Shown here: piece after piece, positions 16,054 to 39,989 of the stretch
Position numbering within the stretch: the first letter of the stretch is position 1
Layout of the letters: each line of letters starts with the position of its first letter
NCBI GenBank assembly: GCA_035765895.1
Contig: DASTWL010000023.1
Coordinates: 1 to 41,309, forward strand
Length of the DNA stretch: 41,309 nucleotides
Reading direction: 5' to 3'
From: Verrucomicrobiia bacterium
Lineage (GTDB): Bacteria; Verrucomicrobiota; Verrucomicrobiia; Limisphaerales; DSYF01
Made by a program: the position numbers and the translations under genes
Notes under the pieces: generated by a model
The model's input: the letters and a program-made list of their open reading frames with translations, nothing else
The model's database searches: none
Told to the model about the DNA's origin: nothing

Positions 16054-19000
16054 GCGTTCCGGAGCTGTTCATCCGCCGCCCAGTCATGACCACGCTGGTC
16101 ATGCTGGGCATCCTGCTCTTCGGCATCATCAGCTATCGCGCGCTGCCGGTCAGCGACCTGCCGAGCGTGGATTATCCGACGATTCAGGTTTCCGCCAGCC
16201 TGCCCGGCGCCAGCCCGGAGACGATGGCTTCGGCCGTCGCCACGCCGCTGGAAAAGCAGTTCTCGACCATTCCCGGCGTGGATTCGATGTCGTCGGTGAG
16301 TTCCCTGGGCAACTGCCGCATCACGATTCAATTCTCGCTCGACCGCAACATTGACGCGGCGGCGCAGGACGTGCAGGCGTCCATATCCAAGGCCTCACGG
16401 CAGTTGCCCACCGGCATGCCGACGCCGCCGACCTTCAACAAGGTGAACCCGGCGGACTCGCCGATTCTCTATCTGGCGCTTACGTCGGACACGCTGCCGC
16501 TGTCCACGGTGGACGAATACGCAGAGACGCTCATTGGCCAGCGCCTGTCGATGGTGAAAGGCGTGGCGCAGGTCGGCGTGTTCGGTGCGCAGGCCTACGC
16601 GGTGCGGGTGCAGCTCGATCCGAGCGCGCTGGCGAGCCGCGGCATCGGCATTGACGAAGTGCAGAGCGCCATTGCCCAGGGCAACGTCAACCTGCCGACC
16701 GGCACGCTGGACGGGCCGCATCAGGCCTTCACCGTCCAGGCCAACGGCCAGTTGTTCCGCGCGGCGGACTACCGGCCGCTCATCGTGGCGTATCGCAACG
16801 GCCAGCCGGTGCGGCTGCGTGAACTTGGCCGCGTGATTGACAGCGTGCAGAACGACAAGGCCGCCGCGTGGTTCAACGGCAAGCGCGGCATCGTGCTCGC
16901 CATCCAGCGGCAGCCGGGCGAAAACACCGTCCGCGTGGTGGATGACATCCGCGCCACCCTGCCCACGCTGCGGGCCCAGATTCCGGGCGCCGTGAATTTC
17001 GAGGTGCTGTATGACCGTTCGCAGTCCATTCGCGAGTCGGTGCATGACGTGCAGTTCACGCTAGGCCTCACCGTGGCACTGGTGGTCATGGTGATTTTCG
17101 TCTTCCTGCGCAACATCTCCGCCACGGTCATTCCGAGCCTGGCGCTGCCCATGTCGCTCATCGGCACGTTCGCGGTCATGTATCTCCTGGGTTACAGCGT
17201 GGACAACCTCTCGCTGATGGCGCTCACCCTGTCCGTCGGCTTCGTGGTGGACGACGCCATCGTCATGCTGGAGAACATCGTGCGCCACATGGAGCACGGC
17301 GAACCGCCCTTCACCGCCGCGCTGAAGGGCTCGCGCGAAATCGGCTTCACGATCATTTCCATGACCTTGTCGCTCGCGGCGGTCTTCATCCCGGTGCTGT
17401 TCATGGGCGGCATTCTGGGACGGCTGCTGCATGAATTCGCCGTGACCATCATGACCGCGGTGCTGGTGTCCGGCTTCGTGTCGCTCACGTTGACGCCGAT
17501 GCTGTGCAGCCGCTTCGTGCGGCCGCCGGCGCAGGCGCACCACGGCAAGGTTTACGCGCTGACGCAAAAATTCTTCGACGGCCTGCTGCTGGTTTACGAA
17601 CGGACGCTGCAGGTGGTGTTGCGGCACCGGCTCATCACCCTCGGCGTGTCCGCCCTGGTGCTGGTGGCGACGGGCTGGTTCTTTGTGAAAATTCCCAAGG
17701 GCTTCTTCCCCAGCGAGGACACGGGCCAGATTTTCATCGTGACCGAAGGCGGGCAGGACGCCTCGTTTGAATCCATGCGCGAGCATCAGTTGCAGCTCAT
17801 GAAGATTGTGGACCAGGAGCCCGGCGTGCAGAACTACATTTCCGCCATCGGCGCCGGCGGGCCCAGTTCCACGCCCAACGCGGGCCGCATCTTCATCCGC
17901 TTGAAACCGCGTTCAACCGGGCGCCCGCACGTGGATCAAATCATCCAGGACCTGCGCAAGAAAATGTCCGCCGTGCCCGGCATCGGCGCCTACCCGCAGA
18001 ATCCGCCGCTCATCCGCATCGGCGGCTCGTTCACGAAGAGCCTGTATCAGTTCACGCTGCAAGGGCCGGATTTGCAGGAGCTGTATCGCTGGGTGCCCAT
18101 CGTGCAGAAAAACATGGCCGCCCTGCCCGGCCTGCAGGACGTCACGAGCGACCTGCAAATCGCCTCGCCGCAGGTGATGGTCCACATCAATCGGGACAAG
18201 GCCCGCGCGCTGGGTGTCACCGCCGAGCAGATCGAGGACGCGTTGAACAACGCCTACGGTTCGCGCCAGGTTTCGACCATTTACGCGCCCGTGGACCAGT
18301 ATTGGGTCATCATGGAAGTCCTGCCGGAAAAGCAGAACGATCCGGCGGCGCTGGCGCAGCTCTACATCCGCTCCGCCACCGGCAAGCTCATCCCGTTGCT
18401 GGCCGTGGCGGACATCACGCGCGACGTGGGCCCGCTGACGGTGAATCACTTTGGCCAGCTGCCGGCGGTGACGATTTCCTTCAACCTCGCGCCGGGGCAT
18501 TCGCTCGGCACGGCCGTGGACGACGTGCAGCAAATGCTCACCAAAATCCGCCTGCCCGCCACACTGAGCGGCAGTTTCCAGGGCCAGGCACAGGTGTTTG
18601 AAAGCTCCGTAAAAGGACTCGGGATTCTGCTGGTGATGTCCATTCTGGTCATCTACATGATCCTGGGGATTCTTTACGAAAGCTTCATCCATCCGCTGAC
18701 CATTCTCTCCGGCCTGCCGTCGGCGGGCTTTGGGGCGCTGCTCACGCTGGAGTTGTTTCACATTGACCTGAACCTTTACGCGTTCGTCGGCCTCATCATG
18801 CTCGTCGGCATCGTGAAGAAAAACGCCATCATGATGGTGGACTTTGCCATCGAGGCCCGGCGCGAAGGCAAGACACCGTTCGACGCCATTTACCAGGGCT
18901 GCGTGCTGCGGTTCCGGCCCATCATGATGACGACGATGGCCGCCCTGATGGGCACGCTGCCCATTGCCTTCGGCTTCGGAGCCGGCGGCGAATCGCGGCA

Positions 19001-19163
19001 GCCGCTCGGTCTGGCCGTTGTGGGCGGCCTGATCGTGTCGCAACTGCTGACGCTCTACATCACGCCGGTATATTACCTTTATCTGGAATCGTTCCAGGCT
19101 TGGCTGAGCCGCCACTTTGGCCGCCGGCCGGCCGTGGTGCCAACCGCCACCCAAACCGCCTGA
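16050..19163 (+). CDS. RND multidrug efflux pump (MdtB/MdtC-like)
   Basis: The 1037-residue protein has normal HAE1 length and the 12-helix RND layout: helix 1 (MTTLVMLGILLFGIISYRAL), a large periplasmic loop (about 30-335), helices 2-6, a second loop (about 545-860) and helices 8-12. The proton-relay aspartates D401 and D402 lie in SVGFVVDDAIVMLENI of helix 4, and the helix 10 lysine lies in VGIVKKNAIMMVDFA. It exports hydrophobic or amphiphilic compounds using the proton gradient, via the adaptor and outer-membrane factor encoded just upstream. MdtB-MdtC pumps are usually encoded as a pair; here there is only one gene, so it likely works as a homotrimer. Confidence 0.95.
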   Translation: MSVPELFIRRPVMTTLVMLGILLFGIISYRALPVSDLPSVDYPTIQVSASLPGASPETMASAVATPLEKQFSTIPGVDSMSSVSSLGNCRITIQFSLDRNIDAAAQDVQASISKASRQLPTGMPTPPTFNKVNPADSPILYLALTSDTLPLSTVDEYAETLIGQRLSMVKGVAQVGVFGAQAYAVRVQLDPSALASRGIGIDEVQSAIAQGNVNLPTGTLDGPHQAFTVQANGQLFRAADYRPLIVAYRNGQPVRLRELGRVIDSVQNDKAAAWFNGKRGIVLAIQRQPGENTVRVVDDIRATLPTLRAQIPGAVNFEVLYDRSQSIRESVHDVQFTLGLTVALVVMVIFVFLRNISATVIPSLALPMSLIGTFAVMYLLGYSVDNLSLMALTLSVGFVVDDAIVMLENIVRHMEHGEPPFTAALKGSREIGFTIISMTLSLAAVFIPVLFMGGILGRLLHEFAVTIMTAVLVSGFVSLTLTPMLCSRFVRPPAQAHHGKVYALTQKFFDGLLLVYERTLQVVLRHRLITLGVSALVLVATGWFFVKIPKGFFPSEDTGQIFIVTEGGQDASFESMREHQLQLMKIVDQEPGVQNYISAIGAGGPSSTPNAGRIFIRLKPRSTGRPHVDQIIQDLRKKMSAVPGIGAYPQNPPLIRIGGSFTKSLYQFTLQGPDLQELYRWVPIVQKNMAALPGLQDVTSDLQIASPQVMVHINRDKARALGVTAEQIEDALNNAYGSRQVSTIYAPVDQYWVIMEVLPEKQNDPAALAQLYIRSATGKLIPLLAVADITRDVGPLTVNHFGQLPAVTISFNLAPGHSLGTAVDDVQQMLTKIRLPATLSGSFQGQAQVFESSVKGLGILLVMSILVIYMILGILYESFIHPLTILSGLPSAGFGALLTLELFHIDLNLYAFVGLIMLVGIVKKNAIMMVDFAIEARREGKTPFDAIYQGCVLRFRPIMMTTMAALMGTLPIAFGFGAGGESRQPLGLAVVGGLIVSQLLTLYITPVYYLYLESFQAWLSRHFGRRPAVVPTATQTA

Positions 19164-25136: not shown

Positions 25137-26576
25137 TCAAATTCCGTCGGGGCCGGGCGCGCGTCCGGTGGCGGGATGCAGCCCAAATTGCACCAGTTTG
25201 GCGTGCATCGTGATGCGCGTGACGCCGAGCCAGCGCGCCGCGCGGGCCTGGTTGCCGCCCGCCCGCTGGATGGCCCGGGCGAACAGCTCCCGTTCCACCG
25301 CCGCGGTCACCTGCGCATGCACGCCGGTCGATTCGCCCCGCTGCGCGGCGTCGAGAATCTGGTCCAGCCATTCGCCGAGGGATGGCTTGAGCAGCGCCGG
25401 CCCGCCGGTGTTGGCGGCAAGCGTGGCCCGCACATGGTCCGGCGAAATGGTGTAGCCCTGCGCCGCCAGCAGCACCTTGCGCACGACGTTTTCCAGTTCG
25501 CGCACGTTGCCGGGCCAGTTTTGCTGTTGCAGACAGGTCATCGCTTCGGGGTGAATCGAGGGGGCGGCCGTGCCGAGGGCCGGCCCGTGACGGGCCAGAA
25601 AGTAGCGGACCAGTTCCGGGATGTCCTCACGCCGGTGCCGCAAGGCCGGCAGCGTGAGCACGACGACGTTGAGGCGGTAGAACAAATCCTGCCGGAATGT
25701 GCCCGCTGCCATCGCGGCCTCCAAATCGCGATGCGTGGCGGCAATGACGCGGACATCCACCGGAATGATTTCCTTCCCGCCCAGCCGCCGCAGCGTGCGT
25801 TCCTGCAGCACGCGGAGCAATTTCACCTGCGTGCCCAACGTCATGTCGCCAATCTCGTCCAAAAAAATCGTGCCGCCGCCGGCCTGTTCAAACCGGCCAA
25901 TCCGCCGCGCGTCGGCGCCCGTGAACGCCCCGCGCTCGTGCCCGAACAATTCGCTCTCGAGCAGCGTCTCCGGGATGGCTGCGCAGTTGATGGTGATGAA
26001 CGGCGCGGGCGCGCGGTCGCTGTGTTGATACAGGGCGCGGGCGATGAGTTCCTTGCCCGTGCCGGTCTCGCCGCGAATGAGCACATCCACCGGCCGCGCG
26101 GCGACGCGGCCGATTTCCTTGTAGATGTCCTGCATCGCCGGGCTGCGCCCGACCAGCGCCTCGCGCCGGGCGGCCGGTTCACCCAACGCCACGGGCTCCG
26201 ACAGGCGCCGGTGACTGTCAGCCGCCTTGCGGATCAATTCCAGCAGGCGCGGCGGGTCGAAGGGTTTGAGCAGGTAATCGTAGGCGCCCCACTTCATCGC
26301 CTCGATGGCGGTGTCGGTGGTGCCAAAGGCCGTGGCCAGAATGATCGGCAGCCGGGGCTGGACGGCGTGCAACTGGCGCACGATCTCCAGCCCGTTCGTG
26401 CCGGGCACCTTCAAATCGGTCACCAGCACATCGAACGCCTCCGCCTGCGCGCGCGCCAGTCCGGCGTCGCCGCGCCGCTCCACGACCAGTTCGCAGCCCT
26501 CGCCAGCCAGCAGGCGGCTCAACGTGTCCGTGATGCCGGCGTCGTCTTCGATGAGCAGAATGCGCGTGGGCGTCAT
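25137..26576 (-). CDS. NtrC-like sigma-54-dependent response regulator
   Basis: The 479-residue protein has three domains. A receiver (1-118) has phosphoacceptor D54 in VTDLKVPG and K104 in LLKPF. The AAA+ sigma-54 activator domain (about 140-370) has Walker A GETGTGKE (169-176), the sigma-54 contact loop GAFTGA (216-221) and Walker B GGTIFLDEIGD. A Fis-type helix-turn-helix lies at the C-terminus (AIQRAGGNQARAARWLGVTR). It activates sigma-54 RNA polymerase when phosphorylated by the kinase whose gene overlaps it by ATGA. A sigma-54 promoter match at 28050 makes the nearby receiver genes likely targets. Confidence 0.95.
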   Translation of the reverse strand: MTPTRILLIEDDAGITDTLSRLLAGEGCELVVERRGDAGLARAQAEAFDVLVTDLKVPGTNGLEIVRQLHAVQPRLPIILATAFGTTDTAIEAMKWGAYDYLLKPFDPPRLLELIRKAADSHRRLSEPVALGEPAARREALVGRSPAMQDIYKEIGRVAARPVDVLIRGETGTGKELIARALYQHSDRAPAPFITINCAAIPETLLESELFGHERGAFTGADARRIGRFEQAGGGTIFLDEIGDMTLGTQVKLLRVLQERTLRRLGGKEIIPVDVRVIAATHRDLEAAMAAGTFRQDLFYRLNVVVLTLPALRHRREDIPELVRYFLARHGPALGTAAPSIHPEAMTCLQQQNWPGNVRELENVVRKVLLAAQGYTISPDHVRATLAANTGGPALLKPSLGEWLDQILDAAQRGESTGVHAQVTAAVERELFARAIQRAGGNQARAARWLGVTRITMHAKLVQFGLHPATGRAPGPDGI

Positions 26577-27964
26577 GCGGTGGCTTGGGGCAGGATGATG
26601 CCGAACGTGGTGCCGCGACCGGGCCAGCTCTGATATTGAAGCGCGCCGCCGTGTTTTTCGATGATGCCCGCGGCGATCGACAGGCCGAGGCCCGTGCCGG
26701 TTTCCTTGGTGGTGAAGAACGGGTCAAACAAGCGTTGCTGCACTTCCGGCGACATGCCTTTGCCGTTGTCCGAAACTTCGAGGACCGCCGCGGCCTGCTC
26801 GCGCCCGCCCAGGCGTTTGCGCGTGGCCCGGATCGTGAGCCGGACCGCGCCATTCTCCCCGATGGCATCCGCGGCGTTTTGAATGAGGTTGATCAAAACC
26901 TGCTTGATCTGCGCGGCGTCAGCCTGGACCCGGAGGGCGGGCGTGTCGGCCACGGTCAACTGGATGTTGTGCCGCGCCAGTTGCGGCGTCAGCAGCGTCC
27001 CAACTTCCCGCAGGAGCGCCACCGCATCGACCTCCGTCCGCCGCGGTTCGGTGGGGCGCGCAAACTGAAGGAACTCGTTGACGATGCGTTCGAGCCGCAG
27101 AATCTCCCGCTCGACGAGCTGGCTGTCGGCATGTTCACGCGAACCCGGCGGGAACTGTTTTTGCTGGATGAACAACGCCGCCTTGATGGCCGTCAGCGGG
27201 TTGCGGATTTCGTGGGCCACGCCCGCCGCCAGCAGGCCGAGGGAGGCAAGTTTTTCGCGGCGTTCCAGCAGCGACTGGCTCTCCACCAGTTTCAGGCGCA
27301 GGGGCGCGATCAGGTGGCGGTAAACGCCGAAGGCGAGAATGGCGCCCAACAGAAACAAGCCGCCGAGCGACACCAGCACCAGGGTGTGCAACTGGCCGAT
27401 GGTCTCGTTCGCCTGCCGGACCAGCCCGCTGCGGGACTGGTAATGCGCCTGCGCGAGCGCCTGCCCCAGTTGCGAGAGGTGGTCCGATTCGCGCATGAGC
27501 CCGGCGTATTCGGCCAGCGTGGCGCTTTGCTGGCCGAGCGACTCCAACCGCGTCACCAGCACGCGGGCCACGGCGAGATACTTGTCGTAGGCGGTGTCGA
27601 TTTGCTGCATGAGCGATTGTTCCGCGGTCGTCAGCAGCTTCGGCTTCTGCTGGTCAATCCACCGGTCAAGCTCATGACTGGTCTTGTCGAACCACCGCAA
27701 GTCGGCGGCGTCATGACCGGCGCCGTAACGGTAAAGGGACATGTTCAGCTCGCGGACGTAATCCGCAAACTCGGCGGCGATGCGGAAACTCTCGGAATCC
27801 ACCTGGCCCAGTTGCCCGCGCAACTTCGCGGCGCGGCCCTGGGATGCAAATGTCAGTCCGCCAACCGCAAGTCCCATCAACGCAATCCCCGCGACGAGAA
27901 TCAGGAACCGCATCTTGACCGTCGCGTCACTGGGTGAGAGCTCAGTTGCTTGCCGCCGCAGCAT
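26573..27964 (-). CDS. NtrB-type membrane sensor histidine kinase
   Basis: The 463-residue product has two membrane helices (about 19-38, RFLILVAGIALMGLAVG; and about 192-213, LHTLVLVSLGGLFLLGAIL). They flank a helical periplasmic sensor region of about 150 residues (four-helix-bundle type, rich in Q and L). A HisKA domain follows, with H251 in VAHEIRNPLTAI, and an HATPase with N box (LINLIQNAADAI), DNGKGMS and GTGLGLSIA. It should phosphorylate the overlapping NtrC-like regulator. An internal ATG 51 bases in (MRFLILV) is an alternative start. The ligand is not evident. Confidence 0.93.
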   Translation of the reverse strand: MLRRQATELSPSDATVKMRFLILVAGIALMGLAVGGLTFASQGRAAKLRGQLGQVDSESFRIAAEFADYVRELNMSLYRYGAGHDAADLRWFDKTSHELDRWIDQQKPKLLTTAEQSLMQQIDTAYDKYLAVARVLVTRLESLGQQSATLAEYAGLMRESDHLSQLGQALAQAHYQSRSGLVRQANETIGQLHTLVLVSLGGLFLLGAILAFGVYRHLIAPLRLKLVESQSLLERREKLASLGLLAAGVAHEIRNPLTAIKAALFIQQKQFPPGSREHADSQLVEREILRLERIVNEFLQFARPTEPRRTEVDAVALLREVGTLLTPQLARHNIQLTVADTPALRVQADAAQIKQVLINLIQNAADAIGENGAVRLTIRATRKRLGGREQAAAVLEVSDNGKGMSPEVQQRLFDPFFTTKETGTGLGLSIAAGIIEKHGGALQYQSWPGRGTTFGIILPQATA

Positions 27965-28118: not shown

Positions 28119-28688
28119 ATGAAAGCGAATGACCTCTTGATGGAACAAACCCACGGAAGCCGCCCGCCCCGCGAAGGGACCGCCCGCGAGTGGCGCAGCG
28201 CACCGGACGACACGTCGCGACGGCTCACCGCCACGGCCACGAAACGCATTCTGCTGGCCGATGATGATCCGGGCGTGCGCGAAATGGTGGGGCGCGTGCT
28301 GGAGTCCGAGCATTATGTGGTCACCTTTGCCCGCAACGGCCGTGAAGCCGCCCAGCGGTTTTCCGCCAGCGCTCCCGATCTGGTGTTGCTGGATTTGAAC
28401 ATGCCGGATGGCGACGGCTGGAAGACCTTCGGCCAGATGTGCCATGAGGATCCGCTGGTGCCCGTCATCGTCATCACCGCGCGGCCGCATCAACTGACCA
28501 ACGCCGTCGAACTGGGCGTCGATGCGTTGATGGAAAAACCGCTGAACCTGCCGTTGCTGCTCGAAACCATCCGCAACCTGATGGCCGAAACCGAGGCCGA
28601 ACGCACCCAGCGCCTCACGAATCCGGAGTTCAAAACCGTCCTGCTGAGGCCGGCCGACAGCCCACGCCAACCGCAACCCGCCACATGA
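28119..28688 (+). CDS. Single-domain response regulator 1
   Basis: The 189-residue product has a non-conserved N-terminal extension of about 40 residues and then a receiver domain (about 42-165). The acidic pocket is DDD (48-50) and the phosphoacceptor is D92 in VLLDLNMPD. The switch threonine lies in VIVITARPHQ and the conserved lysine in MEKPLN. There is no output domain. The 3' end is a short polar tail. ATG 28140 is an alternative start. It overlaps the next receiver gene by ATGA and is divergent from the kinase/NtrC pair, so it may act as a phosphate relay or sink for that kinase. Confidence 0.88.
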   Translation: MKANDLLMEQTHGSRPPREGTAREWRSAPDDTSRRLTATATKRILLADDDPGVREMVGRVLESEHYVVTFARNGREAAQRFSASAPDLVLLDLNMPDGDGWKTFGQMCHEDPLVPVIVITARPHQLTNAVELGVDALMEKPLNLPLLLETIRNLMAETEAERTQRLTNPEFKTVLLRPADSPRQPQPAT

Positions 28689-29155
28689 ACGCCAAAGCCA
28701 GGGCCCAAACCCTCGCCGCCGCCCACGGAAAAACGCTTTTGCTCGTGGACGACGAACCCGCCGTGCGCGAAATGGTGGGCCGCGTGCTGGCGCAGGAGGG
28801 CTATCGCGTGCTGACGGCTGCCAACGGCGCCGAGGCCGTGGCCATGGCGGCCGCGGATGCGGTGGATGCCGCCCTGCTGGACTTGAACCTGCCGGGCCAG
28901 AGCGGCTGGGACACATTCGAACGGCTCACCACGGCGGATCCTTTTCTGGCCGTGGTGATCATCACGGCGCGCCCGAATCAGTTGCTCAATGCCATCAACG
29001 CCGGCGTGAGCGCGCTGCTCGAAAAGCCGCTCGATTTTGAAACGCTTCTCAAAACCGTCCGCCAGGTGCTGGCCGAATCCGACCGGCGCCGCTTGGAGCG
29101 CATGACCGGCCAGCGCGAAGACATTTACTATCAGCCCGTAACCCATCCCGCGTGA
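28685..29155 (+). CDS. Single-domain response regulator 2
   Basis: The 156-residue protein consists of a receiver domain (about 16-135) with acidic residues in VDDEPAVREM, phosphoacceptor D66 in LLDLNLPGQ, threonine in VVIITARPNQ and lysine in LEKPLDF. A short tail follows. It closely resembles the preceding receiver over REMVGRVL and ITARP-x-QL-x-NA, so the pair probably arose by tandem duplication. The ATGA overlap indicates coupled translation. With no output domain it must act by protein contact or phosphate transfer. Confidence 0.88.
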   Translation: MNAKARAQTLAAAHGKTLLLVDDEPAVREMVGRVLAQEGYRVLTAANGAEAVAMAAADAVDAALLDLNLPGQSGWDTFERLTTADPFLAVVIITARPNQLLNAINAGVSALLEKPLDFETLLKTVRQVLAESDRRRLERMTGQREDIYYQPVTHPA

Positions 29156-29767: not shown

Positions 29768-32700
29768 TCAACGCCGCCGGCTCACCTTCTCCCGGTCGGC
29801 CTTTGCCGTTTGGGCAAACAATTCCTGCTGGTGCCAGCCGCCGCCCAGGGCTTTGATGAGTTGCACGGAAGCAATCAACCGCTGCCCCACAAGTTGCGCG
29901 TTGGCGCGCTCGGCCAGGAGGGCTTCCCGGCTGGCGTCCACCACGTCGAGATAACTCACGATGCCGGACCGGTAGCGATCCGCCGCCAGTTCCGCCGCTC
30001 GCCGGGCGCTGTCCACGGCGCGCTGCTGCGCCTCCGCCTGTTCCGCCAGATGACGAATGCCGGACAGGCTGTTCTCCACGTCGCCAAACGCCACGAGCAC
30101 CTGCTGACGATAGCGGGCCACGGCTTCCTGATACGCTGCTTGTGAGCGTTTGTAGTTGGCGCGGTTGCGCCCGCCCGCGAAAAGCGGCAACGACAGGCTG
30201 GGGCCAATCGACCACGTGTGGCTGTCCCAATTGAACAAATTGTCCACGTCGCCGCTGAGATAGCCGCCGGAACCGGTGAGCGTCAGCACCGGAAAGAAGG
30301 CCGCCTTGGCCACACCAATGCGCGCATTGGCCGAGGCAAGCTGCCGTTCGGCTTCGGCCACATCGGGCCGGCGTTCGAGCAGTTCGGCGGGCAGGCCGGC
30401 CGGAATCTCCGGCGGCCGGGGATGCCAGGTGTTCGTGCCCCGCGACGGCAGGGCAAAGGCCACGGGATTGGCGCCCACCAGAATCGCGATGGCATTCTCC
30501 AGTTCCGTGCGCCGCCGCGCGAGCGAAGCGGCCTCGGCCTGGGTCGTCGCCAGTTCCGTTTCGGCACGGGCCACGTCCAGTTCATTGCCAATGCCGCCTT
30601 CAAACCGGCTGCGCACGAGCTGCAATTGTTGTTGGCGCAAATCAACGGTGGCCTGGACGGTGGCGATCTCGGCGTCCAGCGCGCGCAACGCGAAGTAGTT
30701 TTGCGCCACGTCGGATTGCAGGGTCAGCAACACGCCATAGAACCCCGCCAGGGACGATTGCGCCTCGGCCCGCGCACTTTCAAAACCGCGGCGCACGCGG
30801 CCCCACAAATCCACCTCGTAACTCAGGTCCAACGGTGCGTGAAACGTGTTTGCGGTCAGGGTGCCAAAGCCTGGCTCCTGGTTGGGCGAGTAACGCTGAC
30901 GCGTCAGACTCGGATCGAGAGTCAAGCTCGGCAGCAAATCGCCCCGGGCCACCCGGGCGGTTGCCCGCGCCTGATCCACCCGCGCCACCGCGGCCTTGAG
31001 AGCTTGATTTGACTCCGCGGCCTGCAATTCGAGCCGGTTCAAATCCGTGTCGTCGTAAACTTCCCACCAGCTTCCCTTGGGCAGCGTGTCCAGTGGGTGC
31101 CCTTCCTGCCACGTCCCCACAGCGGCCTCCTTGTATTGGCCGGGCGCCGCGTTCGTAGGCGTTTGATAATCCGGCCCCACCGTCAACAGACCCGCACGGG
31201 CCGGGCTGGCGGCAAGCATCAATCCCAGGGCCACCACGGTCGCCGTCGCGCCGGTGGCACCCAGCGCCGGACCTTTGGCCGCCGGAGCCGGCGCGGGTTT
31301 TTTCTTGGTGCTGAGTTTCATCAGCGAAACATAGAAGACCGGCGTGAGGAAGAGGCCGAATACGGTCACGCCAATCATGCCGGCGAACACCGCCACACCC
31401 ATGGCCTGGCGCATTTCGGCGCCGGCGCCGTGGGATTTCACGAGCGGAAACACGCCCGCGATGAATGCGATGGAGGTCATCAGAATCGGCCGCAAGCGCA
31501 GCCGGCAGGCCTCGATGGCCGCGTCAAACGGGGACAGCCCTTCGTCCTGTTTGTGCTTGGCAAACTCCACGATGAGGATGGCGTTCTTGCACGCGAGCCC
31601 GACCAGCACAATCAGCCCGATCTGCGTAAAGATGTTGTTGTCTCCGCCGAACAGCCAGACACCCGTGATGGCGAACAACAGGCACATCGGCACGATGAGA
31701 ATGATGGCCAACGGCAGCCGGAAGCTCTCGTATTGCGCGGCGAGCACGAGAAACACCAGCAACAAACAGAGCGGATAAACATAGACCGCCGTGTTGCCGG
31801 CCAGGATGCGCTGGTAGGTCAATTCGGTCCACTCCGTCTTCATGCCTTTCGGCAGCGTCTGGTCGGCGATCCGGGTGATGAGTTCCTCCGCCTGGCCGGA
31901 ACTGTATCCCGGCGCCGGGCCGCCATTGATTTCCGCGGCCGGGTAGCCGTTGTAACGCATCGCCCGGTCAGGCCCGTGTGTTTCGGTCACCTTCACAATG
32001 GCACCCAATGGCACCATCTGCCCGCTGGCATTGCGCGTTTTGAGACGCGTGACGTCCTCCACCCGGTCCCGGAAACGTGCGTCAGCCTGCGCCACGACTT
32101 GATACGTCCGGCCAAACCGGTTGAAGTCGTTCACGTAGAGCGAGCCGAGGTAAATCTGCATCGTCTCAAACAGATTTTGCAGCGGCACGCCCTGCTGCTT
32201 GGCCTTCACACGGTCAATGTCAGCATCCAGTTGCGGCACGTTCACGGTGAAGGTCGAGAATACTCCAGCCAACCCCGGTGTCTGGTAACTTTTGCCGATG
32301 ATTTGCTGCACGTTTTGATACAGCGCGTCGTAGCCCAGGTCCGCGCGGTCCTCGACGTAAAACTTGAATCCCCCAATCGTCCCCAGCCCCTGCACGGGCG
32401 GCGGCGGCACCGTCAGGATGAACGCCTCCTGAATCCCGCCGAATTGCCGGTTGAGCGCCTGGGCAATCGCCGGCCCGCTCAACGCATGGCCCGGGCGGTC
32501 CTCGAACGGCTTCAACGTGAAGAACACGATGCCCGCGTTGGGCGCCACGCTGAATCCGCTGATGCTCAGGCCGGGAAACGCCACCGCGCTTTGCACGCCA
32601 GGCTGCTTCAGGCCAATGTCCGTCATGTGACGAATCACGGCTTCGGTCCGGTCCAGCGACGCGCCATCCGGCAACTGGGCAAAAGCGACCAGATATTGCT

Positions 32701-34429
32701 TGTCCTGCGTGGGCACGAATCCGGTGGGAACCTTGTTGAAGCCCCAACCTGTCAGCACAACCAGCCCGGCATACACGACCAGCGCCACGGCGCTCTTCCG
32801 CAGAATGGAACCCACACCCACGGCGTAACGGTTGCCCGACCAGGCGAAGAGGCGGTTGAAAGGACGGAAGAACCAGCCCAGCGTCCGGTCCATGCCGCGC
32901 GCAAACCAGTCCTTCGGCGCATGGTGATCCTTGAGCAACACAGCGCACAGCGCGGGCGAAAGCGTCAGTGAGTTGACAGCCGAAATCACGGTCGAAATCG
33001 CGATGGTGATGGCGAACTGCTTGTAAAACTGGCCGGTCAAGCCGCTGATGAACGCCGTGGGCACGAACACGGCGCACAGGACGAGCGCCGTGGCGATGAT
33101 CGGACTGGTGACCTCGCTCATGGCGCGTTTGGCCGCTTCCACGGGCGACAAGCCGAGCGCGATGTTGCGCTCCACGTTTTCGACCACCACGATGGCATCA
33201 TCCACCACGATGCCGATGGCGAGCACCAGCCCGAACAACGACAGGTTGTTGATCGAAAAGCCCAGCGCGAGCATCACTGCAAAGGTTCCGACGAGCGACA
33301 CCGGCACCGCCGCCAGCGGAATGATCGAGGCGCGCCACGTCTGGAGAAAGAGAATGACCACGAGCACCACCAGCACAATCGCCTCGACCAGCGTGTGCAC
33401 GACCGCCTCGATGGAATGCCGCACGAACACCGTCGGGTCATACACCACGTCGTAGTCCAGGCCGTCCGGAAAGTTTTTCTTCAACTCCTCCATCGTGCGG
33501 CGGACGTTGGCCGAAAGTTCAAGCGCGTTGGCACCGGGCGTCTGAAAGATCGGCAGCGCCACCGCGGTCCGGTTGTTCAACAGCGACCGCAACGCGTAGC
33601 TGTCCGCGCTGAGTTCGACGCGCGCCACGTCCTTGAGCAGCGTCTTTTCGCCATTGGGACCGGTCTTCACGATGATCTGGCCGAATTCATCGGCGGAAAC
33701 CAGACGGCCCTTGGCGTTGATCTGCATTTCGAAGTTCACCGGCTCGCCGACCGGCTGCTGCCCGATGGCCCCGGCCGCCACCTGCACGTTCTGCTCGCGA
33801 ATCGCGCTGACCACGTCACTGGCCGTGAGATTGCGCGCCGCGATTTTATCCGGGTTGAGCCAGATGCGCATCGCATAGTCACCCGAGCCAAACACGCGCA
33901 CCTCGCCCGCGCCGGGAATGCGCGCCAGCACGTCCTTCACCTGCAACGTGGCGTAATTGCGGATGTAAACGGCATCGTAGCGGTTGTTCGGTGAGAAGAG
34001 GTGCACCACCATCGTGAGGTCGGGCGACTGCTTGGTGGTCGTAACGCCAAGGCGCCGGACTTCCTCGGGCAGTTTGGGCAGCGCCTGCGACACGCGGTTC
34101 TGCACCTGGACCTGCGCCTTGTCCACATCCGTCCCGAGCTTGAACGTGATGGTCAGCGTCATCACACCGTCACCGGTGGATTGCGAAAACATGTAGAGCG
34201 AATCCTCGACGCCGTTGATCGCCTGCTCGAGCGGCGAAGCGACCGTTTCCGCAATGGTCTTGGGGTTGGCGCCCGGATACGTGGCGCGCACGACCACCGT
34301 GGGCGGAACGACTTCGGGATACTCGCTGATGGGCAGCTTCCACATGGCGATGGCGCCCACGAGGAAGATGAGGATCGAAAGCACGCCGGCAAAAATCGGC
34401 CGGCGAATGAAAAAGTGTGAAAAATTCAT
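29768..34429 (-). CDS. Fused RND efflux pump and outer-membrane factor
   Basis: This uninterrupted frame encodes 1553 residues. Residues 1-1036 are a complete HAE1 RND pump of normal length: helix 1 after MNFSHFFIRRPIFAGVL, proton-relay D410 and D411 in AIGIVVDDAIVVVENV, and the helix 10 lysine in VGLACKNAILIVEFA. Residues 1037-1553 are a complete NodT/OprM-type factor (VGPDYQTP; LLERRPDVAEAERQLASANA; LSGIRHLAEQAEAQQRAVDS). The joint has a basic stretch (STKKKPAPAPAAK), a hydrophobic segment (about 1057-1074) and a PARA cleavage-like motif near 1079, i.e. an internal signal peptide. Methionine 1037 could also be an internal start. The pump works with the adaptor encoded 60 bases upstream. The products could be one chain, a cleaved pair, or two separately initiated proteins. 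Confidence 0.93.
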   Translation of the reverse strand: MNFSHFFIRRPIFAGVLSILIFLVGAIAMWKLPISEYPEVVPPTVVVRATYPGANPKTIAETVASPLEQAINGVEDSLYMFSQSTGDGVMTLTITFKLGTDVDKAQVQVQNRVSQALPKLPEEVRRLGVTTTKQSPDLTMVVHLFSPNNRYDAVYIRNYATLQVKDVLARIPGAGEVRVFGSGDYAMRIWLNPDKIAARNLTASDVVSAIREQNVQVAAGAIGQQPVGEPVNFEMQINAKGRLVSADEFGQIIVKTGPNGEKTLLKDVARVELSADSYALRSLLNNRTAVALPIFQTPGANALELSANVRRTMEELKKNFPDGLDYDVVYDPTVFVRHSIEAVVHTLVEAIVLVVLVVILFLQTWRASIIPLAAVPVSLVGTFAVMLALGFSINNLSLFGLVLAIGIVVDDAIVVVENVERNIALGLSPVEAAKRAMSEVTSPIIATALVLCAVFVPTAFISGLTGQFYKQFAITIAISTVISAVNSLTLSPALCAVLLKDHHAPKDWFARGMDRTLGWFFRPFNRLFAWSGNRYAVGVGSILRKSAVALVVYAGLVVLTGWGFNKVPTGFVPTQDKQYLVAFAQLPDGASLDRTEAVIRHMTDIGLKQPGVQSAVAFPGLSISGFSVAPNAGIVFFTLKPFEDRPGHALSGPAIAQALNRQFGGIQEAFILTVPPPPVQGLGTIGGFKFYVEDRADLGYDALYQNVQQIIGKSYQTPGLAGVFSTFTVNVPQLDADIDRVKAKQQGVPLQNLFETMQIYLGSLYVNDFNRFGRTYQVVAQADARFRDRVEDVTRLKTRNASGQMVPLGAIVKVTETHGPDRAMRYNGYPAAEINGGPAPGYSSGQAEELITRIADQTLPKGMKTEWTELTYQRILAGNTAVYVYPLCLLLVFLVLAAQYESFRLPLAIILIVPMCLLFAITGVWLFGGDNNIFTQIGLIVLVGLACKNAILIVEFAKHKQDEGLSPFDAAIEACRLRLRPILMTSIAFIAGVFPLVKSHGAGAEMRQAMGVAVFAGMIGVTVFGLFLTPVFYVSLMKLSTKKKPAPAPAAKGPALGATGATATVVALGLMLAASPARAGLLTVGPDYQTPTNAAPGQYKEAAVGTWQEGHPLDTLPKGSWWEVYDDTDLNRLELQAAESNQALKAAVARVDQARATARVARGDLLPSLTLDPSLTRQRYSPNQEPGFGTLTANTFHAPLDLSYEVDLWGRVRRGFESARAEAQSSLAGFYGVLLTLQSDVAQNYFALRALDAEIATVQATVDLRQQQLQLVRSRFEGGIGNELDVARAETELATTQAEAASLARRRTELENAIAILVGANPVAFALPSRGTNTWHPRPPEIPAGLPAELLERRPDVAEAERQLASANARIGVAKAAFFPVLTLTGSGGYLSGDVDNLFNWDSHTWSIGPSLSLPLFAGGRNRANYKRSQAAYQEAVARYRQQVLVAFGDVENSLSGIRHLAEQAEAQQRAVDSARRAAELAADRYRSGIVSYLDVVDASREALLAERANAQLVGQRLIASVQLIKALGGGWHQQELFAQTAKADREKVSRRR

Positions 34430-34489: not shown

Positions 34490-35677
34490 TTACCGGCGGG
34501 CGGTTTGCACGCCTTCCGTTGGAGCCTGGGCCACCGCGGTTTGGGGTGTCACGGCCATGCCCGCGCGGACGCGTTGCAGCCCGTTCACCACGATGCTCTC
34601 GCCCTGCCGCAGCCCGGATCGCACGACACGTTTCCCCTCGATGTAGGGTCCAAGTTGCACGGATTGGTAGGCCACGGTGTTGGACGACGTCAGCGTCAGG
34701 ACAAACTTTTCCGCCTGGTCCGTGCCGATGGCGCGCTCATCCACCAACAACGCTGGGTGCCGCGCGCTCAACGGCACGCGAATCCGCGCGAACAGCCCGG
34801 GCACGATGCGGCCGTCGTCATTCGGAAACACTGTGCGCAACAGGATGCTGCCCGTGCCGGGATTGAGCTGGTTGTCCAGCGATTCGATATAGCCCTGATG
34901 CTTGAATCCGTCCTCGTCGGCGAGTTGCAGTTCCACGGGAATCCGGCCATCACGATTCGTTTCGAGCTGTCGGTCACGCGCGAGGGCGTTGAACTTGAGC
35001 AGCGAGTCTTCATCCATGTCCGCATACACGTAAACCGGGTCCACCGAGACAATGGTGGTCAGGCGCGTGGCGGCGCCCGCAATGCCACTGACGTAGTTGC
35101 CCTCGGTCAGCAACGCCCGGCTGACCCGCCCGTCAATGGGTGCGCACACCTGGGTGTATTCAAGATCGAGCTTTGCCGAATCGCGGGCGGCTTGCGCCGC
35201 GAGCAAGGCGGCCTGCGCTTCATGGTAACGGGCAATGCGCGCGTCCCCCTCCTCCGTCGAAATCGCCTTGCTGGAGAGCAACTGCACCGTGCGATCCGCC
35301 TCCCGCTTGGCGTTGTCGAGCAACACCTGAGCGCGCTCGGCCTCGGCCTCGCGCCGGTTGAATTCCGCCTGGTGCCAGCGCGGATCAATGACGAACAACA
35401 CGTCGCCCCGCTTCACCATCTGGCCGGACTGAAAGCGAACCTCCTGAATGTAGCCGGACACGCGCGGGCGCACTTCGACCGATTCAACGGGCTCTGTGCG
35501 GCCGGTAAATTCGCTCCACTCGACAATTTCCTGCTGGGCCACCGGAGCCACGGTAACGGTTGGTGGTGGCGGCAACTGCGTGGTGGCCGCCTTGGGCTCA
35601 CAGCCCGTCAGCACAGCCATCGCGCCGCTGACGGCCACGGTCGGGAGTAAAAGAGACAAAAAGGACTTCGTGATCAT
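34490..35677 (-). CDS. RND periplasmic adaptor lipoprotein (AcrA/MexE-like)
   Basis: The 395-residue membrane fusion protein has lipobox AVLTGC (C26). The lipoyl halves are RPRVSGYIQEVRFQSGQMV and VCAPIDGRVSRALLTEGNYV, with an alpha-hairpin in between (about 95-170, EAEAERAQVLLDNAKREADR). A beta-barrel (VYVYADMDEDSLLKFN) and membrane-proximal domain ending in NGLQRVRAGM follow. It couples the RND pump encoded next to the outer-membrane factor fused to that pump. The short spacing (60 bases to the pump, 47 bases from the 107-residue gene) indicates one operon under the TetR regulator upstream. Confidence 0.93.
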   Translation of the reverse strand: MITKSFLSLLLPTVAVSGAMAVLTGCEPKAATTQLPPPPTVTVAPVAQQEIVEWSEFTGRTEPVESVEVRPRVSGYIQEVRFQSGQMVKRGDVLFVIDPRWHQAEFNRREAEAERAQVLLDNAKREADRTVQLLSSKAISTEEGDARIARYHEAQAALLAAQAARDSAKLDLEYTQVCAPIDGRVSRALLTEGNYVSGIAGAATRLTTIVSVDPVYVYADMDEDSLLKFNALARDRQLETNRDGRIPVELQLADEDGFKHQGYIESLDNQLNPGTGSILLRTVFPNDDGRIVPGLFARIRVPLSARHPALLVDERAIGTDQAEKFVLTLTSSNTVAYQSVQLGPYIEGKRVVRSGLRQGESIVVNGLQRVRAGMAVTPQTAVAQAPTEGVQTARR

Positions 35678-36111: not shown

Positions 36112-36726
36112 TCAGGCCGAAACCGGCCCGGCTGTCTTGACGCCCAGCAAATCGAACGTGCCGCGCAGCGCATCTCGCAGAATTTCCAAGTTGTTCTGAA
36201 TGCGCGCCTCGGTGACGAGCCCTTGGTAATATGCAAATAACGTGCGCGATTTTGCGGCCGCATCCGGCGCGTCAATCAGGTCGGCCGCAGCGGCGTCCCG
36301 AATGGCGCTTTCGAGATACTTGCGCTTGTATTCAAGCACCTCGCTGATCTTAGCACGCAACCGGTCTTCCTGCGTGCAGACCTCTGCCCCCACCGAGTGA
36401 AGCGGACAGCCAAGCACACACCCATATCGCTGTTGTTTAGCCACTTGGAACCGGTAGACGAAATCGCAATAGCGGCGCAGCCGCTCCAACGGCGGAACCG
36501 TCGGCGAAAACAAGGAATCCAGCTCCGGCCGATGCCGATCCCAATCTGCTTCCAAAGCGGCCATCGCCAAGTCCGCCTTGGACTCAAAAAAATAGTAAAA
36601 GCTGCCCTTCTTTACGCCGGCCTTTTCACAGATCTGGTCAATCGTCGTGCTGCCGTAGGAACCTGTCCAAATCAACTCGCTGACGGCTTCCATCAATCTC
36701 ACTTTGGCATCACTGACTCGACCCAT
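36112..36726 (-). CDS. TetR-family repressor of the fused RND system
   Basis: The 204-residue protein has the TetR helix-turn-helix near residues 8-52 (LMEAVSELIWTGSYGST, TIDQICEKAGVKKGSFYYFF), with the VKKGSFYYFF end typical of AcrR/NemR-like members. The C-terminal domain contains two cysteines in GCVLGCPLHS and one in EVCTQE, which may allow redox or electrophile sensing; this is a guess. ATG 36726 (MGRVSDAK) was preferred to 36753 because it starts directly before the first helix. Operator-like palindromes occur upstream (36791-36807) and downstream before the pump operon (36067-36083). Confidence 0.88.
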   Translation of the reverse strand: MGRVSDAKVRLMEAVSELIWTGSYGSTTIDQICEKAGVKKGSFYYFFESKADLAMAALEADWDRHRPELDSLFSPTVPPLERLRRYCDFVYRFQVAKQQRYGCVLGCPLHSVGAEVCTQEDRLRAKISEVLEYKRKYLESAIRDAAAADLIDAPDAAAKSRTLFAYYQGLVTEARIQNNLEILRDALRGTFDLLGVKTAGPVSA

Positions 36727-36790
36727 AACGATTTTCACTTTCAATGTTGGCAAACGAGGTTTCGTTCACCAACGCGCTCATCCTATCGAA

Positions 36791-36869: not shown

Positions 36870-39800
36870 TCAGGCCTGATCGTCGATTGGCTTGGTCTCA
36901 AATCGCCCGAAGCGCAGGGCCAAGGTCGGCAGAACCAGCAGGTTCAGAATTGTGGAGGTTATCAAGCCGCCCAGAATGACAATGGCCATCGGCCCTTCAA
37001 TCTCGCGCCCCGCCTCGCCCGAGCCCAGCGCCAGCGGCAGCAAGCCGAGCCCCGTGACGGTGGCGGTCATCAGTATGGGCATCAGCCGTTCGGCAGCGCC
37101 GCGGCGGGCCGCTTCCGCGCCCCACGTCATGCCCTCCGCTTGAACGAGATGTTCGAAGTGCGAAATCATCATGATCGAGTTGCGCATGGTGATGCCGAAC
37201 AACGTCACGAACCCGACCAGCGAACCAATGGTCAGGGAGCTTCCCTCCGGACTCAACAGACTGGTCACCCATACTGCCAGCACCCCGCCAACCAGCGCGA
37301 AGGGCACATTGACGAGCACCAACGCCAAATTCCGCCAGTTATGAAACACAACCGTCAACAACAGCAGAATTCCCACCGCCGCGATGGCGGAATGCAGCAG
37401 GAGCTGGTGTTGTGCCGCCGCCTTGGCCTGGGCAGCACCGCTGAATTCGACATAGGTGCCGGTGGGAAAACTGACCTTTTGTGCGATGAGCCTTTTGGCC
37501 GCGGCGACAAATGAGGTCACGTCCCGGCCGCTGGTGGCGCACGTCACCACCTGGCGCCGCCGGGCGCCGTCGTGAAGAATCGAAGACCGGCCGGTGGTGA
37601 GATAAACATCGGCCAATTCGCGCAGGGGCAGCAGCACGCCTCGCTCGCTGCGCAGGGGCAGTTCGCCGATTGCCTCCGGATCACGCCGCCCGGCGGGCGA
37701 CAAAATCACGGCCACATCGGTGACGGCGTTTGCGCGGTGTGTCTGCGCCACCACCGTGCCCTGATACGACGTTTGCAATGCCTCCATCACCTCCACCGGA
37801 CGGAATCCAAACTGCGTCAGCCGATCCGGCCGCAGACGAACCACAACACGGGGTTCACCAGGCGGCGACTTCACCTTCACGTCCACGGCCCCGGGAATGT
37901 CATGCAGCACCGTGGCGACCTCCTGCGCCCTGGCATCGAGCACGTCCAAATCCTCGCCGAAAATGTTCACCACCACCGGCGCCGTTTCGCCGGAAATGGT
38001 TTCACCGATGCGATCCCCGAGGAAGGTCAACACTTCATACTGAATGCCCGGGAATTGCTTGAGCACGGCGCGGATTTTGTCCGCCATCGCCTCCTCCTCG
38101 TCGGCCGGCATGGGGTTCAAATCCACGTGGAACTCGCTGCGGTTGGGCCCCCACGGATCCTCGCCCAGTTCGGCCCGCCCCACCTGCTGTTCCACGGTCG
38201 CAATGTGATTGGTGTCCTTGAGCAACTCCGCGGAAATCCGCGTGCCGATGCGCAACATTTCCGGCAGCGACGTGCCGGGCGCGGCATAGACCTGCAACAC
38301 AAAGTGGCCCTCCCGAAAATCCGGGAGAAACTCCCCGCCCTGCGGCAATCGCGTGAACGCGGCAACGCAAATGATCAACACGGCAACCAGCACCGACCGC
38401 GGCCGGCGCATGACGAAATCCAGCACCCGCGCGTAGCCGGCTTTCAGCCACCGTTGCAGACGCGGTTCCTCCGCACGGCTGGCGCCCCGGTCGAAGAGCA
38501 GGAACGCCAGCGCCGGCGTCAACGTCAGCGCCACCAGCAGTGACGCCAGAATCGCCAGTATGTAACTCAACGCGAGCGGCGAAAAGAAACTGCCCTGCAA
38601 GCCGGTCAACAGCAGCACCGGCAAAAAGACCAGCGTGACAATGAACGTGGCGAACACCACGACGCGACGCACTTCCAGCGAGGCCAGCAAAATGACGCTG
38701 ATGACCGGCCGTGGATGCGTTCGCGCCCGATTCTCCCGCAGGCGGCGGAAAATATTTTCCACGTCAATGATGGAGTCATCAACCACTTCGCCGAGGGCAA
38801 TCACCAGTCCGCCCAGAGTGATCGTGTTGATGGTGACCCCCATTTTTTCCAGGGCGATGACGGCCGTCAGGAGCGAGACCGGGATGGCCGCGAGGGAAAT
38901 GCAGGCCGTCCGGGCGCTGCCGAGCAGGAGGAACAACACCACCGCCACCAGCAAGCCGCCCAGCAGCAGCGAGTGCTTCATGTTGCGCAGGGCAACCTCG
39001 ATGAAGGTTGCCGGCCGGTGTAGGCGCGGATACAGCTTGATGCCGGCCCGGGCAAAAACCGGCTTCAGCTCGCCAAGCGCCGCCTCCAGCGACTTCGTGA
39101 CCTCCATGGTATTGGCGCCATACTGGCTCGACATCGTCATCAAAACGCCCCAACGGGCTTGGATGACCGTGTCACCAAATTTGGGTTCCGCCCCGGCGAC
39201 GACCTTGGCCACGTCCTTGAGCCGCACACTCAAACCATCCTTGTGCGTCACCACGACGTCCCCCAGTTCGGCCGGCGTGAGAGTTCGTTCCTCGGTTTGA
39301 ATCGTGATGCGTTGGTTCGCCGTCTCCACAAAGCCCGCGCCCATCACGGCGGTGGAGGCGCGCGCCGCAGCCAGGACGTCCGACAATGCCAGCCCGTAAG
39401 CCCGCATTTTTTCCGGCGACACCTGCACTTGCAACTGCCGCACCTCGCCACCGAAGACGCTGCACTTCGCCACGCCCGGCACGGAAAGCAACCGCGGTTT
39501 GAGCGTCCAATCGGCGAACGCTCGCAGTTCCATCGGCGTCAGCGTGTCCGAGACCAGACCGATCTTGAGCAGGTCCATGGTGGAGGACGTCAGCGGCGTC
39601 ATTTTCGGCGCCTTGGCCGTCACCGGCAGTTCTCCCGCAGTTTCCGCCAGTGTCTCGGCGAGCATCTGCCGCGCGCGAAAGACATCCGTGCCCTCCTTGA
39701 AAACGGCGGTGATGATGGACAAGCCTTCGATGGACTCCGAGCGCAGGGATTCCATGTCACCCAGGCCGTTGATGGCCGTTTCCAGCGGCCGGGTCACCAG

Positions 39801-39989
39801 TTGCTCCACCTGTTCTGGCGCGAAGCCGGGACATTCCGTCTGCACCGTCACCTGCGGCTGAACAAAATCCGGAAAGACATCCAACCTGGCATTCTTGGCC
39901 GCGTAAAAACCGTAAACCAGCAGCACGCAGGCGAGGGCCACCACAATGCCACGGAACTTCAGCGAGAATTTGACGAGCGCCTGCAGCAT
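36870..39989 (-). CDS. CzcA/HME-like RND efflux pump
   Basis: The 1039-residue protein has the 12-helix RND plan. The N-terminus (LVKFSLKFRGIVVALACVLL) and first periplasmic loop (ARLDVFPDFVQPQVTVQTEC, PGFAPEQVEQLVTRPLETAI) match the heavy-metal efflux branch (CzcA/CusA). Helix 4 has ALGEVVDDSIIDVENIF with D404 and D405; this differs from the DFG-x3-DGAV form of classic CzcA, so it belongs to a separate subgroup and the substrate may not be a divalent metal. It follows the CzcB-like adaptor by 4 bases. The C-terminal tail (FETKPIDDQA) is short and normal. Confidence 0.9.
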   Translation of the reverse strand: MLQALVKFSLKFRGIVVALACVLLVYGFYAAKNARLDVFPDFVQPQVTVQTECPGFAPEQVEQLVTRPLETAINGLGDMESLRSESIEGLSIITAVFKEGTDVFRARQMLAETLAETAGELPVTAKAPKMTPLTSSTMDLLKIGLVSDTLTPMELRAFADWTLKPRLLSVPGVAKCSVFGGEVRQLQVQVSPEKMRAYGLALSDVLAAARASTAVMGAGFVETANQRITIQTEERTLTPAELGDVVVTHKDGLSVRLKDVAKVVAGAEPKFGDTVIQARWGVLMTMSSQYGANTMEVTKSLEAALGELKPVFARAGIKLYPRLHRPATFIEVALRNMKHSLLLGGLLVAVVLFLLLGSARTACISLAAIPVSLLTAVIALEKMGVTINTITLGGLVIALGEVVDDSIIDVENIFRRLRENRARTHPRPVISVILLASLEVRRVVVFATFIVTLVFLPVLLLTGLQGSFFSPLALSYILAILASLLVALTLTPALAFLLFDRGASRAEEPRLQRWLKAGYARVLDFVMRRPRSVLVAVLIICVAAFTRLPQGGEFLPDFREGHFVLQVYAAPGTSLPEMLRIGTRISAELLKDTNHIATVEQQVGRAELGEDPWGPNRSEFHVDLNPMPADEEEAMADKIRAVLKQFPGIQYEVLTFLGDRIGETISGETAPVVVNIFGEDLDVLDARAQEVATVLHDIPGAVDVKVKSPPGEPRVVVRLRPDRLTQFGFRPVEVMEALQTSYQGTVVAQTHRANAVTDVAVILSPAGRRDPEAIGELPLRSERGVLLPLRELADVYLTTGRSSILHDGARRRQVVTCATSGRDVTSFVAAAKRLIAQKVSFPTGTYVEFSGAAQAKAAAQHQLLLHSAIAAVGILLLLTVVFHNWRNLALVLVNVPFALVGGVLAVWVTSLLSPEGSSLTIGSLVGFVTLFGITMRNSIMMISHFEHLVQAEGMTWGAEAARRGAAERLMPILMTATVTGLGLLPLALGSGEAGREIEGPMAIVILGGLITSTILNLLVLPTLALRFGRFETKPIDDQA

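Follow-up and report, generated by a model that had tools for sequence, protein, structure and literature searches.

A single open reading frame on the minus strand of the analysed window, a stretch of 41,309 nucleotides from a Verrucomicrobiia bacterium, encodes an RND pump and its outer-membrane factor (OMF) with an internal signal peptide between them (29768..34429). The frame was identified by translation, which gave 1553 codons free of stops from 34429 to 29768, and by fused orthologues in other genomes. Two proteins for two membranes are thus probably made as one chain. Our favoured reading, to which we give a high probability, is an inner/outer-membrane polyprotein, in which a 12-helix pump is followed by an internal signal peptide that would be cut by signal peptidase I or, where relatives have a lipobox instead, by signal peptidase II. 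What the sequences themselves show is the fusion and its conservation, together with the signal peptide and a cleavage motif under selection.

The pump domain was assigned to residues 1-1036 (31322..34429, minus strand). Pfam ACR_tran (PF00873) matched residues 3-1035 over profile positions 1-1019 of 1021 with 1201 bits, and RND_permease_1 gave 1473 bits against a cut-off of 1250. The domain extends over residues 1 to approximately 1039, shows exactly 12 strong segments in the hydropathy analysis, and contains the D-D, K, and R motifs of the proton relay (GIVVDDAI at 406, ACKNAIL at 946, and LRLRPI at 977), as a complete HAE1/OqxB-MexF-type RND pump. The solved structures nearest to it by sequence belong to the multidrug RND group, and from this family membership we infer drugs or amphiphiles as the exported substrates. 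The remainder of the chain is a NodT/OprM-type OMF with a predicted mature length of 474 amino acids (residues 1080-1553; 29771..31192, minus strand). NCBIfam outer_NodT (TIGR01845) matched residues 1084-1531 over profile positions 12-460 of 460 with 431 bits against a cut-off of 210, and phmmer aligned OMF residues 6-466 of 474 with OprM 4-464 (E 6e-64); by sequence, the domain resembles OprM, OprJ, OprN, and CusC. A lipidated N-terminal Cys is usual in OprM and is neither universal nor defining for NodT/OprM factors. The OMF of the window gene has no lipobox Cys at its N-terminus, where the site reads ASPARA↓GLL. The initial annotation had described a full HAE1 pump and a full NodT/OprM factor in the 1553-residue frame, which agrees with the near-complete ACR_tran match and with the TIGR01845 match running to the end of the model. 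It had set the border of the domains at 1036/1037, and here the fusion stood while the border did not: because Met1037 and "MKL" belong to the C-terminal tail of the pump, the meaningful boundary is A1079↓G1080. Indeed, unfused relatives carry the same MKL residues before the stop codon of the pump.

The joint consists of STKKKPAPAPAAK, a hydrophobic core, and ASPARA↓GLLTVGPDY, in this order. The basic loop, which would act as the n-region of the signal peptide, was located in the sequence at residues 1040-1054 (STKKKPAPAPAAKGP; 31268..31312, minus strand), the core by hydropathy at residues 1055-1073 (31211..31267, minus strand), and the c-region, ending in SPARA, by conservation at -3/-1 and by the N-termini of mature OMFs at residues 1074-1079 (31193..31210, minus strand). 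These are the traits of a signal peptidase I substrate, namely a basic n-region, an h-region, and small residues at -3/-1, and the cut was predicted between A1079 and G1080. The resemblance to a complete signal peptide, pointed out in the initial annotation, was confirmed for the basic loop, the core, and the SPARA site, and the joint is almost certainly, to judge from these elements, a built-in export signal. The predicted N-terminus of the OMF lies within 2 residues of the starts of mature OprM, OprN, and CusC, with OMF residue 6 aligned to residue 4 of mature OprM. Genes for both signal peptidases, S26 and A8, are present in the source genome. Pumps of the AcrB type have their C-terminus in the cytoplasm; therefore, an N-in/C-out segment that follows the pump places the OMF in the periplasm. 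Two features of the window gene count against a cut: the hydrophobic core is weak, being the 13th and weakest hydrophobic segment of the chain (hydropathy 1.74 over 19 residues), and the distance from the n-region to the site is long. Cutting might also be inefficient where a signal peptide comes behind a polytopic protein, so that some of the long chain is left.

According to the mechanism that we propose, the first ~1039 residues would enter the membrane like any 12-helix RND pump, with the C-terminus facing the cytoplasm, residues 1040-1079 would serve as an N-in/C-out signal peptide, and the OMF would be exported to the periplasm through Sec. Signal peptidase I would then cut after Ala1079, its place being taken by signal peptidase II in the lipobox relatives. 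The freed 474-residue OprM-like factor would move to the outer membrane and trimerise, and the pump would retain the signal peptide as a 13th helix if no trimming took place. Origin from a polyprotein would yield pump and duct in equal numbers, and two genes, the fused one and that of the upstream adaptor, would be enough for a standard tripartite efflux system.

The cleavage motif was compared across 72 distinct fused joints, 33 with a lipobox and 39 of type I. Behind the 12th helix of the pump, all 72 contain a signal peptide with at least three K/R residues, a net charge of at least +2, a hydrophobic core, and a peptidase motif. G-C is invariant in the lipobox group (33/33), and none of its members has Asp at +2. 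The type I group has a small-x-Ala/Gly site in 39/39; with positions counted at fixed offsets and a 4-residue deletion in two rows allowed for, -1 is Ala in 38 joints and Gly in 1, and -3 is mostly Ala, Thr, or Val. No column of the joint varies more than -2, whose entropy in this group was 3.36 bits, compared with 1.36 at -3 and 0.46 at -1; parsimony on the pump tree counted one change at -1, nine at -3, twenty-three at -2, and eighteen at -4. Three different codons encode the Ala at -1 in the type I joints. A nearly invariant -1 beside a variable -2 is the pattern expected of selection for cleavage, which an uncut anchor would not need. The conservation of -1/-3 and of G-C is partly owed to common descent. 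Lipobox and type I joints coexist inside the window's own clade, where L016, L058, and L059 have Cys, and in the unfused sisters, whose OMF gene lies just downstream, the same two kinds of signal peptide are found at the equivalent place. The polyprotein cut by signal peptidase I, which the initial annotation had preferred, is supported by the motif in 72/72 joints with its variable -2 and by the interchange of lipobox and AxA sites, and likewise by the fit of the predicted cut to the mature OMF starts and by the A↓Q sites at the joints of Bacteroidota CusA-TolC fusions.

Every one of the 13 CusA/CzcA transporters examined from Bacteroidota plasmids (L230:5035-9390 and L232-L243) is such a fusion, an RND-TolC protein with an internal signal peptide. 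All 13 have (A/S)↓Q at the joint, whereas Q makes up 10.7% of their OMF parts. Substrates of signal peptidase I in Bacteroidetes follow a lineage-specific Q-rule at the cleavage site (PMC5837995); since the joints agree with this rule, we counted them as independent support for cutting. Like the window gene, the Bacteroidota fusions (e.g. WP_013768944.1 from Haliscomenobacter) place pump, internal signal peptide, and OMF in one CDS with an adjoining adaptor gene. They differ in having a pump of the heavy-metal (HME) family, another OMF, the adaptor gene downstream, and the A↓Q site, and the fusion is almost certainly independent of that in the window. Two further fusions, on contigs of Omnitrophota MAGs (L182:1926-6452 and L187), have an internal LSGC lipobox and a pump of a distant subfamily with 31-33% identity; the pump of another Omnitrophota relative, L175, is unfused. 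As far as sequences can tell, the pump-OMF layout thus recurs in at least three bacterial phyla.

The cleavage motif also bears on the reading that a single uncut chain runs across both membranes, with the 13th segment as a signal anchor and the OMF tethered to the pump. We consider this improbable. The frame is continuous, the hydrophobic core could anchor, and the 41 residues from the site to the first conserved helix region of the OMF are a possible tether. However, by our own estimate ~40 residues span ~14 nm at most, whereas the equatorial domain of the OMF is near the outer membrane, across a gap of 23 nm; a known pump spans this 23 nm between the membranes without contact between pump and OMF (PMC4754349). 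Moreover, the feature under selection is the cleavage motif (-1/-3, the G-C of the lipobox, and A↓Q) and not an anchor, and the lipobox relatives should require a free N-terminal Cys. The long chain through both membranes, an alternative in the initial annotation, is hence disfavoured on account of both the motif that it leaves unexplained and the length of the tether.

A start of translation within the joint, at Met1037 or another codon, would make the OMF a separate product. This second alternative of the initial annotation has in its favour that an in-frame ATG is conserved at the Met1037 position in the window's clade, but MKL is the pump's own C-terminus in unfused relatives, and no Shine-Dalgarno-like sequence precedes Met1037. 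Such a sequence lies near any candidate start in only 4 of the 72 joints, while 22 lack an ATG and six have no start codon whatever, and we regard an internal start as very unlikely. An error of sequencing or assembly, or a recent dead fusion through a lost stop codon, is scarcely credible: a run of six T is present at the joint (31298-31303) and some close relatives have separate genes, but over 50 further genomes of the phylum, single-contig ones among them, contain the same open in-frame fusion with both domains intact. These conserved open fusions exclude both a lost stop codon and a frameshift as the explanation.

The search for homologous fused proteins in related genomes, suggested in the initial annotation, was thereby successful. 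In a whole-protein search, roughly twelve of the first 58 genomes had pump and OMF in one open frame, and a count of the listed matches, partial contigs included, gave fusions in ~55 of 293 genomes of the order. They are spread across many families of the order, with more distant ones throughout the phylum, and fused pumps recur down to ~38-40% pump identity; the fusion is an old one. Four are in single-contig genomes (G099, G373, G375, and G479), and those neighbours that bear names are MAGs assigned to Verrucomicrobia subdivision 3 and Pedosphaera. The initial annotation would have abandoned the fusion if all close relatives had separate genes; only some do (e.g. L019 and L092), and because these keep pump and OMF apart, the fusion is not essential. 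We placed 156 pump domains, 67 of them fused, on one tree; the fused or unfused state needs 12 changes there, 11 of which are forced by well-supported branches. Fusion, fission, or both have consequently been repeated, and the count cannot tell which. A single origin in one small clade was rejected in view of these at least 11-12 changes and of the other pump subfamilies in Bacteroidota and Omnitrophota. Where the sisters are unfused, the gene for the OMF frequently comes next and sometimes begins in the same frame right behind the stop, so that the loss of one stop would suffice to fuse the genes. One fusion, L165, on a contig labelled Methylacidimicrobium fagopyrum, falls within the subdivision 3 clade; the label of this MAG may be wrong.

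Tripartite systems usually have one gene for the pump and another for the duct, and TolC-type ducts are commonly shared. The nearest known relatives of the window system are MexEF-OprN, OqxAB, and AdeFGH: by its matches to the RND_permease_1 and OqxB models, the pump falls nearest to this HAE1 group, the adaptor is MexE/OqxA-like, and the OMF is NodT/OprM-like. In contrast to the one frame with an internal signal peptide in the window, these systems have separate pump and OMF genes; the adeFGH locus was matched in one piece, and adeH starts 12 bases past the end of the preceding pump gene. A comparable arrangement is FbcH, the cytochrome b-c1 polyprotein of Bradyrhizobium, a polytopic inner-membrane protein with an internal signal peptide at which signal peptidase releases a second, exported protein. 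The second product of FbcH stays in the inner membrane or periplasm, whereas the OMF of the window gene must reach the outer membrane. An AcrB-AcrA fusion has been made in the laboratory. This and the AcrZ-AcrA laboratory fusion, mentioned in PMC4446572, resemble the window gene in that two parts of an RND tripartite pump are on one chain; unlike it, they are artificial, join the adaptor to the pump or to a pump helper, and are intended to remain intact.

The architecture is not new to databases: fused CusA/CzcA-TolC CDSs stand in RefSeq under a single transporter name, each annotated as one transporter of ~1450 amino acids. The fused CDSs are therefore already annotated. Full-text literature, covering few subscription papers, yielded no description of RND-OMF fusions in nature or of the signal peptide inside them, and no paper on the cut, which is weak evidence of absence. 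If the polyprotein reading is true, an equal supply of pump and duct would be fixed, the duct would be dedicated to one pump, and assembly would possibly be coupled; an internal signal peptide behind a 12-helix transporter could still deliver an outer-membrane protein. Many entries of 1440-1560 amino acids named "efflux RND transporter permease" or "CusA/CzcA" would then probably represent two mature proteins. A bolder proposal, which we offer only tentatively and think rather doubtful, is a recurrent and overlooked route of building RND systems in Verrucomicrobiota, Omnitrophota, and Bacteroidota, in which the signal peptide is kept as a functional, AcrZ-like 13th helix and the numbers of pump and duct are locked equal.

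Directly upstream of the fused gene lies a gene for a MexE/OqxA-like periplasmic adaptor (34490..35677, minus strand; NCBIfam MexE and RND_mfp, Pfam HlyD_D23). As the adaptor gene and the fused gene are on one strand, two genes encode a complete tripartite RND system. A TetR-family regulator gene (36112..36753, minus strand; TetR_N and TetR_C_13) is located upstream of the adaptor gene and likely controls the pump operon. The window contains two more RND pumps, both unfused and one CusA/CzcA-like, at 16062-19085 (plus strand) and 36870-39989 (minus strand). Two genes for stand-alone response-regulator receivers (28119-28688 and 28685-29155, plus strand) overlap by 4 bases and are near a histidine kinase (26573-27964, minus strand) and a sigma-54 activator (25137-26576, minus strand). 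Elsewhere in the same genome, the RND profile matched a pump with a frame of 1186 amino acids (G000:C47:67857-71051; L008/L009) in two pieces whose profile coordinates overlap, which suggests that this pump holds extra or rearranged sequence in the middle of the protein.
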